From positions 1,474,784 to 1,538,783 of the forward strand of contig JAKVOU010000001.1 of NCBI GenBank assembly GCA_022482625.1: 64,000 nucleotides of DNA, given 5' to 3'. Both the position numbers and the translations under genes were made by a program. Positions within the stretch are counted from its first letter, which is position 1. Every line of letters begins with the position of its first letter. The DNA is from Spirochaetia bacterium. GTDB lineage: Bacteria > Spirochaetota > Spirochaetia > Sphaerochaetales > Sphaerochaetaceae. Below the pieces are notes generated by a model. It saw nothing but the letters and a program-made list of their open reading frames with translations. It was not told where the DNA came from and made no database searches. Shown piece by piece: positions 32,322 through 35,465 of this stretch.

Positions 32322-33725
32322 CTAATATTCTATTTCATAGGTCAAATTCTTGAAATCAGCTGTCAATGAAATGCAATCATTGCCATTCTTCCACATCAAT
32401 TTCAATTGTGAGGGAGAAATAATCTCCTGAGAGAATTCCCCATCAAACGCAGGATGTTCATTCCTCAGTTCCATCAATGAAATCAATTTCTGTACTACAG
32501 GGCAATGTACTTGATCTGCAACTTCTTCATTGGAATAAGCATGCCTGTTAATGTTTCTTCCTTCTTTTGTCTCCTCCAAGAGACGTAGATCATTTTTTCC
32601 TGCAAGCATACCGACATAATACACTTGCGGAGTTCCTGGAGCAAAAAACTGGACAGCACGGGCAAGCAGATACGACTGGTCGTCATTACCAAGAGCAGAA
32701 TAATAGGTACAGTTGATCTGGTAGATATCCAAGTTGTTGTAAGCCTCAGTGTTATATACACGTTTTACATTTGCACCATAAGAAAAAAGATGGTTCTTCG
32801 TTGCTTCAATTTCCTCATCGGAAAGCAATCCATATACATCTACGACACCGATTCCATCATGGGTATCAAGCGTTGTGTACTGGTTCCTTGGGCAAATGGA
32901 AAACCAATGATACAAATTGGCAGCCTGACCAAAATAAATGGCATGCAGCAACAGCATCGGAAGTGCAAAATCATATACAGCATAGCCTTTCTGAGCTATT
33001 TTCAATTGCATGGAATAGTGTTCATGTACCTCTGGCATTATCGTAGCACCATATGGCAAAACTATCTGCCTGCACATCTCAAGCAATTGCCAGATTTCAG
33101 GCTCAATGAAAAAACAAGAAGTATCAGCTTTCTTGATTGCATAGGCAAAGGCATCAAGCCTCATTATCCTTACCCCATGGGAAGCCAGGCGTATCAGATT
33201 TTCCTTTAGGAATTCCTTACCTGTTTCAGTTTCCAAATTCAAATCTATCTGTTCATCGCTGAACGTACACCACACATTCCGGCTACTCCCATCCTGCAGT
33301 GTTACTTGCCGATATGGCGCTTTCGGTTTCCTCTTGTAAATCTTTGCAATCTGGGCAGAAGTAGGTGTTTTTCCCCAAATATGATCGAAATCAATGAACA
33401 GATCGTTATAAGGAGAGGCATCTCCTTTCTGGATAAAATCCATAAAATATCGGCTTTTTGCTGAAATATGATTGATCATGTAATCAGCCATAAGCAGATA
33501 GTCGGCAGATAATTCTTCAACATCCTTCCAGTCTCCGAATTGTGCATCGACTTCCGTATAGGTTGTCGGAGCAAACCCATGGTCACCGGAAGAAGGGAAA
33601 AAGGGAAGAATATGGACTCCCCCAACAGCCTTTCTGAAATATGTATTCAGATTCCTATGCAGGTCCTGGATATTATTCCCCAGTGAATCAGCATATGTTA
33701 TTAAAATAATCCTATTTTTATCCAT
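32322..33725 (-). CDS. gtfA: Sucrose phosphorylase (GH13, subfamily 18 type)
   Basis: Cleaves sucrose with phosphate to glucose 1-phosphate and fructose. GH13 motifs: the nucleophile block MRLDAFAYAIKKADTSCFF, the acid in MPEVHEHY, and the transition-state stabiliser in LDTHDGIGVVD. Other sucrose-phosphorylase blocks are VYDFALPMLLLHA, YSALGNDDQSYLLARAVQFF and TPQVYYVGMLAGKND. At 467 aa it is close to the usual 480-500, and a related glucosylglycerate or sucrose-6-phosphate phosphorylase cannot be excluded. No sugar transporter lies beside it. Confidence 0.88.
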   Translation of the reverse strand: MDKNRIILITYADSLGNNIQDLHRNLNTYFRKAVGGVHILPFFPSSGDHGFAPTTYTEVDAQFGDWKDVEELSADYLLMADYMINHISAKSRYFMDFIQKGDASPYNDLFIDFDHIWGKTPTSAQIAKIYKRKPKAPYRQVTLQDGSSRNVWCTFSDEQIDLNLETETGKEFLKENLIRLASHGVRIMRLDAFAYAIKKADTSCFFIEPEIWQLLEMCRQIVLPYGATIMPEVHEHYSMQLKIAQKGYAVYDFALPMLLLHAIYFGQAANLYHWFSICPRNQYTTLDTHDGIGVVDVYGLLSDEEIEATKNHLFSYGANVKRVYNTEAYNNLDIYQINCTYYSALGNDDQSYLLARAVQFFAPGTPQVYYVGMLAGKNDLRLLEETKEGRNINRHAYSNEEVADQVHCPVVQKLISLMELRNEHPAFDGEFSQEIISPSQLKLMWKNGNDCISLTADFKNLTYEIEY

Positions 33726-33748: not shown

Positions 33749-33777
33749 AGTATATGTTCCATATTTCATTATGTCAA
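33749..33777 (-). promoter_or_regulatory. gtfA promoter
   Basis: On the minus strand TTGACA (33777-33772), a 17-base spacer and TATACT (33754-33749). The LacI operator overlaps the -35 box by three bases. Confidence 0.8.
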
Positions 33778-33902: not shown

Positions 33903-33931
33903 TTGCATTGAATACCGGAGGATGCTATAAG
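33903..33931 (+). promoter_or_regulatory. mgtE promoter
   Basis: TTGCAT (33903-33908), a 17-base spacer, TATAAG (33926-33931). The expected start near 33938 gives a leader of about 170 bases. Confidence 0.65.
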
Positions 33932-33937
33932 GAGAGT

Positions 33938-34109
33938 GTCGCGTTCCCGCATGGGAATGTCTGATTACACACAAGGAGGCCCTCAATGGACAACCCTAAC
34001 GGTAGTAGAAGCCAGAATCAGGATCACCACTCGTGTGCAAGGATATGTACCGTCTGATGCAATGATTCGGCTTCACCTTTTCAAACCAACAAAATTTTGA
34101 GGTGTAGCC
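33938..34109 (+). ncRNA. Structured leader RNA of mgtE, candidate Mg2+-responsive element
   Basis: The leader begins with a hairpin region: outer GTGT / ACAC around the stem TTCCC-GCAT-GGGAA (33943-33971). It then has a strong ribosome site and a 23-codon ORF. A long stem follows: GAAGCC-ag-AATCA (34008-34020) pairs with TGATT-c-GGCTTC (34063-34074), and encloses smaller stems such as CAC-TC-GTG. The mgtE ribosome site follows at 34099. It does not match the M-box consensus as I remember it, and I cannot name a known class. Confidence 0.5.
33986..34057 (+). CDS. Upstream ORF (leader peptide candidate) of mgtE
   Basis: Begins with ATG six bases after a perfect AAGGAGG (33973-33979), a better ribosome site than that of mgtE itself. 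It encodes 23 residues starting MDNPNGSRSQNQ, rich in polar residues, with two cysteines and two adjacent histidines. The ORF ends with TGA inside the loop of the long stem in this leader, so ribosome position could change that stem. No similarity is known to me. Confidence 0.5.
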   Translation: MDNPNGSRSQNQDHHSCARICTV

Positions 34110-35465
34110 ATGCAAGATTACAAATTTGACAAAGAAGCTTTGCTCGGGCTTGTCAAAGCCGGAAAGTATGCAGAGCTAAGAGAAAAACTTACTCATCTGA
34201 ACGAAGTCGATGTCGCAGATTTCATGGAAGAACTCCAGACTCCGCAGGCAATGATTGTCTACGGCTTGCTTGAAAAGGAAGTCGCTGCAGACGTATTCGC
34301 AAATCTGCCAGTCAAGAGCCAACAGGCTTTGATTACGTCTTTGGATGACCATCAGCTTTCAGCTATCATAGGAGAACTGTCAGTCGATGATGCAGTAGAT
34401 ATGATCGATGAATTGCCTGCCAATATCGTAAGACGTATCCTACAACACGCATCACCGGAAACACGGATGCTCATCAACAGGTACCTACACTATCCTGAGG
34501 ATAGCGTAGGTTCAATCATGACCAGCGAGTTCGTCGACCTTAAGAAAGAGTTGACGGTGCAAGAAGCAATTGAACGAATCAGGGCAATAGGCAAAGACAA
34601 GGAAACCATTTACACGTGTTATGTTACGGACAGCAAGCATCGGCTGGAAGGAATTGCAACCATCAAGGACCTCCTTTTCTCTTCCAATGAAACACTTGTC
34701 GCAGATATCATGGAAAAGGATGTCATCAGCATCCATACTACCGATGACCAGGAACTTGCAGCCCAGCTGTTCAACAAATACAATTTTCTCAGCCTTCCCG
34801 TAGTCGATACTGAGAATAGGCTGGTCGGTATCGTCACCGTTGATGATGCAGTGGATGTCATGGAAGATGAAGCTACCGAAGATATGGAAAAGATGGCAGC
34901 CCTTGCTCCTTCTGAACGTCCATACCTCAGCACAGGAGTCATGGAACATGCCCGGCATAGAATCGTATGGTTGCTCGCACTTATGGTCAACGGCATGATC
35001 ACCGGTTCTATTCTCGGCCGGTTTGAAGATGCGTTCGTTGCATTGCCCATACTCGTAACATTTATCCCCATGCTTACAGACACCGGAGGCAATGCCGGCA
35101 GCCAATCCAGTACGCTGATCATCCGCGGACTGGCAACCCAAGAGCTGGAACCAAAAGATTGGTTGGCAATCGTATGGAAAGAACTGAGAGTAAGCATCGT
35201 CGTAGGACTGATTCTTTCTTCTGTAAATTTTCTACGGATTATTCTCACCTACAAATCAGTAAATATCTTGGTAGCTCTGACAGTTTCCTTTGCCATGGTC
35301 TGTACGGTGATGCTTGCAAAGCTCATAGGTTGCATGCTTCCTCTCATTGCACAGAAAATCCACACGGACCCGGCCATCATGGCTGCGCCACTTATTACGA
35401 CAATCGTCGATGCCATGAGCCTCATCATTTATTTTTCCATAGCAAAGACATTACTGCATATATAG
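34110..35465 (+). CDS. mgtE: Magnesium transporter MgtE
   Basis: Homodimeric Mg2+ channel of the inner membrane. Domains: N-terminal helical Mg2+ sensor (residues 1 to about 130), a CBS pair (about 135-255, GSIMTSEFVDLKKELTVQEA; IMEKDVISIHTTDDQELAA), a connecting helix, and about five transmembrane helices (about 280-450). These carry the pore block FIPMLTDTGGNAGSQSSTLIIRGLA. At 451 aa it is standard. The ATG follows GAGG by seven bases. A structured leader with an upstream ORF precedes it. Confidence 0.95.
   Translation: MQDYKFDKEALLGLVKAGKYAELREKLTHLNEVDVADFMEELQTPQAMIVYGLLEKEVAADVFANLPVKSQQALITSLDDHQLSAIIGELSVDDAVDMIDELPANIVRRILQHASPETRMLINRYLHYPEDSVGSIMTSEFVDLKKELTVQEAIERIRAIGKDKETIYTCYVTDSKHRLEGIATIKDLLFSSNETLVADIMEKDVISIHTTDDQELAAQLFNKYNFLSLPVVDTENRLVGIVTVDDAVDVMEDEATEDMEKMAALAPSERPYLSTGVMEHARHRIVWLLALMVNGMITGSILGRFEDAFVALPILVTFIPMLTDTGGNAGSQSSTLIIRGLATQELEPKDWLAIVWKELRVSIVVGLILSSVNFLRIILTYKSVNILVALTVSFAMVCTVMLAKLIGCMLPLIAQKIHTDPAIMAAPLITTIVDAMSLIIYFSIAKTLLHI

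Follow-up and report, generated by a model that had tools for sequence, protein, structure and literature searches.

The Mg2+ transporter gene mgtE in the window (the whole 64,000-nt stretch of spirochaete DNA analyzed here) is preceded by a leader that carries a short upstream open reading frame (uORF) and several complementary segments, which raises the question of whether translation of the uORF could decide if the mgtE ribosome-binding site (RBS) is accessible. An initial annotation of this DNA had proposed, in the style of Mg2+ transporter leader peptides, that a ribosome on the uORF switches a stem in the leader. The analysis supports this idea in outline, and one peptide signature was found to recur before mgtE and corA across Spirochaetia.

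Organization of the mgtE leader and its nearest homologues

The window leader contains, in order, a promoter, hairpin I, the AAGGAGG sequence, the uORF, and the mgtE RBS (Table 1). The initial hairpin, the AAGGAGG, and the 23-codon ORF that had been annotated are all present in the sequence where they had been placed, and Pfam bore out the identity of the downstream gene. A short ORF that is preceded by a Shine-Dalgarno (SD) sequence and lies upstream of a Mg2+ transporter gene, as in uORFs of the mgtL/mgtQ/corL type, is found in the window and also at corA of the same genome. Transcription of mgtE would be expected to start near 33938. Nearby, a strong sigma-70-like promoter on the minus strand (TTGACA-17-TATACT, 33749-33777) apparently serves the divergent alpha-amylase-family gene at 32322-33725.

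TABLE 1 Coordinates of the elements of the mgtE leader in the window
Feature	Position	Strand	Basis
Promoter: -35 TTGCAT (33903-33908), 17-nt spacer, -10 TATAAG (33926-33931)	33903-33931	+	Sequence; three homologous leaders
Hairpin I, GCGTTCCC-GCAT-GGGAATGT	33941-33960	+	Fold; changes on both pair sides among four leaders
Helix A 5' arm, CACACAAG; overlaps uORF SD, pairs with 34030-34037	33968-33975	+	Complementarity
uORF SD, AAGGAGG	33973-33979	+	Sequence; invariant in clade alignment
uORF, 23 codons, leader peptide MDNPNGSRSQNQDHHSCARICTV*; ATG 33986, TGA 34055-34057	33986-34057	+	Sequence
GGTAGTAGA (Gly-Ser-Arg), recurrent GGY-AGT motif within uORF	34001-34009	+	Sequence
Helix B 5' arm, GAAGCCAGAATCA (GAAGCC-A-GAATCA), uORF codons 8-12; pairs with 34063-34074	34008-34020	+	Shuffles; class-wide excess
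Helix A 3' arm, CTCGTGTG, inside uORF	34030-34037	+	Complementarity
Helix B 3' arm, TGATTCGGCTTC, directly past uORF stop	34063-34074	+	Fold; shuffles
Helix C 5' arm, GGCTTCACCT (anti-RBS); overlaps helix B arm, pairs with 34100-34109	34069-34078	+	Complementarity
Helix C 3' arm, AGGTGTAGCC, mgtE SD up to start codon	34100-34109	+	Sequence; complementarity
mgtE, Mg2+ transporter, ATG at 34110; MgtE_N, two CBS, and MgtE domains	34110-35465	+	Pfam

Homologous leaders were gathered through the MgtE protein and not through the leader DNA; a search with the whole leader DNA against 60 other genomes detected no relative, only one short stray match. The three nearest homologues, in genomes G122, G007, and G026, encode MgtE proteins 67 to 73% identical to that of the window. 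Their leaders all show TTGC-17-TATAA, a hairpin, ACACAAGGAGG or GCACAAGGAGG, and a uORF, and the uORF peptides are MKPSSRSSNLDYHLCGFPHI, MKPNDRSSNLDYHLCDSIRL, and MKPNDRSSNLDYHLCDSSRM; homologous leader peptides include MKPSSRSSNLDYHLC.., MKPNDRSSNLDYHLC.., MDDPDGSTDYHIRQY.., and MDSDPGSITIDYHLC.. (the last before corA). The annotated promoter was not among the predictions of a generic sigma-70 scan, and its TTGC and TATAA are kept with identical 17-nt spacing in the alignment of all three homologues. Promoter, hairpin, SD, and uORF are thus conserved in close relatives. Within the window's genus, a search at E 1e-60 gave no close MgtE in any other genome. Outside the family, the top named matches came from Lachnospiraceae; horizontal transfer or loss is possible.

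Compensatory changes were also found among the four leaders; covariation in the long stem is what the initial annotation had named as support. First, both sides had changed in 4 of the 8 pairs of hairpin I, and 93.5% of cells were paired. Second, helix A, in which the uORF SD pairs with the late uORF, is fully paired in each of the three homologues and shows one A-U to G-C change; compensatory changes on the four-leader alignment numbered one for helix A and one for helix B. Third, when hairpin I, helix A, and helix B were taken together, they had 89.7% of cells paired and a covariation score of 0.346 compared to 0.191 in shuffles, with 0 of 500 reaching the observed score, on an alignment that is small (four sequences, two nearly identical); slid registers of the same set scored far lower. 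Finally, helix C had no covariation support at the same register in the clade alignment. G122 keeps the GGCTT:AAGCC of helix C, and in G007 and G026 the mgtE SD is masked by another segment (CAATCC:GGATTG) and the B and C arms do not overlap. Conservation of helix C at one fixed register among these relatives was not supported, since G007 and G026 use other registers.

Alternative helices and proposed masking of the transporter RBS

The long stem of the initial annotation, which held the ORF stop in its loop, is helix B. It forms the principal helix in the minimum-energy structure of the window leader and stands out against dinucleotide shuffles (z -3.85, p 0.01), compared to p 0.055 for helix C. 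Helices A and C are alternatives beyond those that had been named. Helices B and C both use GGCTTC and hence compete, whereas helices A and B interleave. Mutually exclusive structures, one of which masks the downstream RBS, as in leaders of the mgtL/mgtQ/corL type, are therefore present in the window.

The same three pairings were examined in 28 non-redundant spirochaete mgtE leaders, where A joins the uORF SD to the late uORF, B joins the uORF to the post-stop segment, and C joins the post-stop segment to the mgtE SD. Duplex energies were lower than in dinucleotide shuffles, with Stouffer z values of -7.8, -7.6, and -4.2 for A, B, and C, respectively, and own partners were better than mismatched ones (p 5e-5, 5e-5, and 2.5e-4). 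When the window was ranked against the 28 partners, helix C came first, helix B second, and helix A 23rd; helix A is weak in the window, with one A-C mismatch. Chance, with a fortuitous short ORF and fortuitous stems between two genes, is an extremely improbable account of these observations: single-sequence folding of the window leader is moderately unusual only (-49.9 kcal/mol, z -1.98, with 5 of 200 shuffles equally stable), which would suit chance, but conservation in the homologues and the class-wide statistics refute it at the class level. Across the class, the elements recur, are conserved, and are complementary above chance.

How the helices might respond to a ribosome was simulated by equilibrium folding with a footprint placed at each uORF codon of the window leader. 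With the P site at codons 1 to 3, helix B predominated (about 0.91) and helix C was at most 0.03; at codons 4 to 16, helix C reached about 0.86; and at late codons (17 to 21) the fold went back to helix B. A ribosome that completes the uORF would accordingly be expected to hide the mgtE RBS, and one that pauses or drops off in the first codons would be expected to expose it. In ribosome-free folding, the window leader prefers B, and G122 and G007 prefer A plus C.

Premature transcription termination by Rho would be another way for the uORF to act, with its translation exposing a Rho site instead of controlling access to the RBS. Leaders of mgtL and corL in enterobacteria work in this way (PMC11282234, PMC11552253), and no intrinsic terminator was found in the window leader, so that a transcriptional mode would need Rho. 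However, the transporter SD repeatedly pairs with the post-stop segment, an arrangement expected for translational control, and Rho-dependent termination is considered unlikely here. Masking of the transporter RBS is the preferred reading. Some mgtE genes of the class (L019 and L017) have no evident SD, and the L019 start codon lies in a possible hairpin.

Leader peptides of mgtE and corA

An SD-preceded uORF with a recurring acidic or Asp-Pro motif plus Gly-Ser or Ser-Arg was found at 27 of the 40 mgtE loci examined in the window's family, for example, MESADPGPSRNAFLRKAF, MDKCGKSASISDDPLSRHS..., and MEAGSSRLFADPDPVPD...; examples from other families are MDDPDGSTDYHIRQY..., MSLREIVDTDSDPDGSRNN..., and MGDGSSSGSYPG.... 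Many mgtE loci have no uORF. Four Lachnospiraceae mgtE leaders (L034 to L037) share a conserved uORF, MERGSSDSHSQN.QPDAVYHPAY... (SDSHSQN..PD..YHPAY). The SD and start of this uORF, GGTGGTGACCGT, are able to pair with a segment late in the uORF that varies among the leaders (ACGGTCACTGCC, ACGGTCGTTGCC, TCGGTCGCTGCC, and ACGATCACTGCC), and the transporter SD tends to sit in a strong hairpin.

The pattern AGGAGG-start-GGYAGTAG, searched over 138 genomes of the family, gave many chance matches, and the matches included leaders whose gene encodes a CorA-type protein bearing the YGMN motif. A signature uORF, typically MS..DDGGS..PLP, precedes corA at 48 of the 48 family loci examined, a nonrandom sample made up of the 30 best matches and 18 hand-picked from the remaining ones. 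A good example is corA of the window's own genome (L225; G000:C1:1425400-1427300, minus strand, outside the window), which has the acidic/proline leader uORF MSLPDDSGKPLPASITISRTMSILSSSGEAL (MSLPDDSGKPLPAS...). In other families, the signature was found at 12 of 20 corA loci, such as MDSDPGSKRIYFS..., MSDPDGGSPRL..., and MDETPGSRRRLNFFHFI. One of the latter, MDSDPGSITIDYHLCRA..., contains the DYHLC that the window's sisters have in their leader peptides before mgtE, a link between the window peptide and the class. Helix A and RBS masking (helix C) were each supported in the corA leaders (p 5e-5 each). Helix B was unsupported there (p 0.81).

[DE]P occurs in 26 of 38 uORFs, compared to 9.1 after residue permutation (maximum, 19). 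An early acidic or Asp-Pro motif was shared by 81 of 89 distinct leader peptides of Mg transporters, compared to 10 of 48 other SD-preceded short ORFs at the same loci, a comparison with a small control set and a motif picked after the data were seen. The window peptide, MDNPN, has D2 and P4 and has N where relatives have D; with one acidic residue among the first twelve (D2), it falls below most of the class in acidity, and the closest sister peptides begin with MKP.

A codon constraint was also apparent. Among the 89 distinct leader uORFs, Ser after Gly is encoded by AGT in 58 of 66 cases, compared to 3 of 119 for Ser at residue 18 or later. This AGU codon, often within GGY-AGT-AGN as in the window, often creates a UAG in the -1 frame. 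A GGYAG:CUGCC hairpin is present in one corA group. Fixation of GGY-AGT by pairing inside the uORF was rejected, since own partners were no better than mismatched ones over all leaders (p 0.28).

These features also bear on whether the uORF might encode a stalling (arrest) peptide, or read charged tRNA, the state of the ribosome, or some signal other than Mg2+ acting through drop-off; a stall at codons 1 to 5 would set the same helix choice. A ribosome held at codons 1 to 3 favors helix B in the simulation, early acidic residues are scarce in the window clade, the constrained AGU codon suggests a decoding element, and the corA leader peptides contain PLP, a context related to EF-P-dependent pausing. 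On the other hand, MgtE and CorA are unrelated Mg2+ transporters whose leaders have the acidic/Asp-Pro signature in common, an indication that Mg2+ is the signal, and there is no run of codons for a single amino acid of the kind that would suggest tRNA sensing. Arrest or another signal is accordingly judged quite unlikely, and Mg2+-dependent drop-off is the reading followed below.

A candidate Mg2+-sensing switch and its relation to known leaders

It is likely, by analogy with Salmonella mgtQ-mgtB and mgtL, that the window leader is a translation attenuator for mgtE in which Mg2+-sensitive abortion of uORF translation would free the transporter RBS. The strong AAGGAGG would recruit ribosomes, and the leader peptide that they would synthesize has Asp and Pro near its N terminus (M-D-N-P-N-G-S). 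When Mg2+ is ample, the whole uORF would be translated, the 5' arm of helix B would be covered, and GGCTTCACCT could pair with the mgtE RBS (helix C, OFF). At low Mg2+, the ribosome would pause or drop off in the first codons through intrinsic destabilization by the Asp/Pro codons; helix B would then form with GGCTTC, leaving the mgtE RBS free (ON). Helix A may tune initiation at the uORF. Weighing against this reading are the weak helix A and the low acidity of the window peptide, the drifting register of helix C, the return to helix B at late codons, the ribosome-free folds that differ among sisters, the unsupported helix B of corA leaders, and the mgtE loci with no uORF. That the uORF is translated, that its translation is Mg2+ sensitive, and that the response runs in this direction is what we infer from these elements.

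The closest parallel is mgtQ-mgtB (PMC8092293), in which a short ORF follows AGGAGG, mgtQ carries Asp2, Pro4, and Glu5, with Asp2 and Glu5 required, and alternative stem-loops form; the mgtB RBS is masked in one stem-loop and is released once the acidic codons destabilize the ribosome. However, mgtQ has 8 codons and lies inside an operon upstream of mgtB in Enterobacterales, whereas the spirochaete uORF has 23 codons in the window, lies in the 5' leader of mgtE (and of corA) in Spirochaetia, and encodes D(x)DPGS/DDGGS peptides. The spirochaete helices A and B also interleave instead of sharing one arm. MgtL of mgtA is likewise an acidic/proline leader peptide before a Mg2+ transporter; mgtA is turned on when, at low Mg2+, ribosomes drop off at EPDP and leave the uORF incompletely translated, and changing Glu2 and Asp4 to Gln and Asn abolishes the effect (PMC11282234), a result that counts against the proposed trigger for the weakly acidic window peptide. 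The same logic is proposed for the window leader, but the target of MgtL is a Rho-dependent terminator and the evident target here is the mgtE RBS. CorL of E. coli and Salmonella (PMC11552253) is also a uORF before corA, and its translation is inverse to transporter expression; it has an enterobacterial structure with Rho and few acidic or Pro residues, in contrast to the strong DDGGS..PLP of spirochaete corA leaders. The likeness to these enterobacterial leader peptides would be one of mechanism, and no homology of the peptides is claimed.

A direct Mg2+- or ligand-sensing riboswitch with an incidental uORF is very unlikely. The leader is structured, precedes a Mg2+ transporter, and keeps hairpin I by compensatory change, but Rfam gave no match in the window leader or in 20 related loci, and the M-box (ykoK, RF00380), which the initial annotation had already thought absent, did not exceed the gathering score of its covariance model in the window or in any of the 138 family genomes (control positive in B. 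subtilis and Lactococcus). Moreover, the uORF peptide signature is conserved while RNA sequences and registers drift. The M-box and all other Rfam families were therefore rejected as the identity of the leader, even though the M-box is also a leader RNA of Mg2+ transporter genes, often before mgtE, and occurs with a uORF in Mycobacterium (PMC12810186). The mgtE motif of Narunsky et al. 2024 (PMC11109978) is a further structured RNA upstream of mgtE and places the SD within a stem; the accessible part of that source reports it from Thioalkalivibrio only, as a riboswitch candidate with no uORF described, and it is set apart by this description. The openly accessible literature searched on mgtE leader peptides and Mg2+ transporter uORFs covers the enterobacterial mgtL, mgtP, mgtQ, and corL, the M-box, and the Thioalkalivibrio mgtE motif, and the spirochaete mgtE and corA leaders are not described there.

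There is about an even chance that these leaders form a widespread class of switches in which a nascent peptide senses Mg2+, marked by a D(x)DPGS/DDGGS peptide, a constrained AGU codon, and an RBS-masking leader; such a class would control the two unrelated transporters MgtE and CorA throughout the class Spirochaetia, would probably reach Lachnospiraceae, and would replace the M-box there. Leader peptides that destabilize the ribosome have been described as Mg2+ sensors from enterobacteria; in the distant phylum of the spirochaetes, the same principle appears to act on mgtE and corA. The spirochaete leaders offer a natural sequence set for testing the causes of ribosome drop-off at low Mg2+. 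If this reading is true, nascent-peptide Mg2+ sensing would be a general bacterial strategy, and a missing regulatory step in spirochaete magnesium homeostasis would be supplied.
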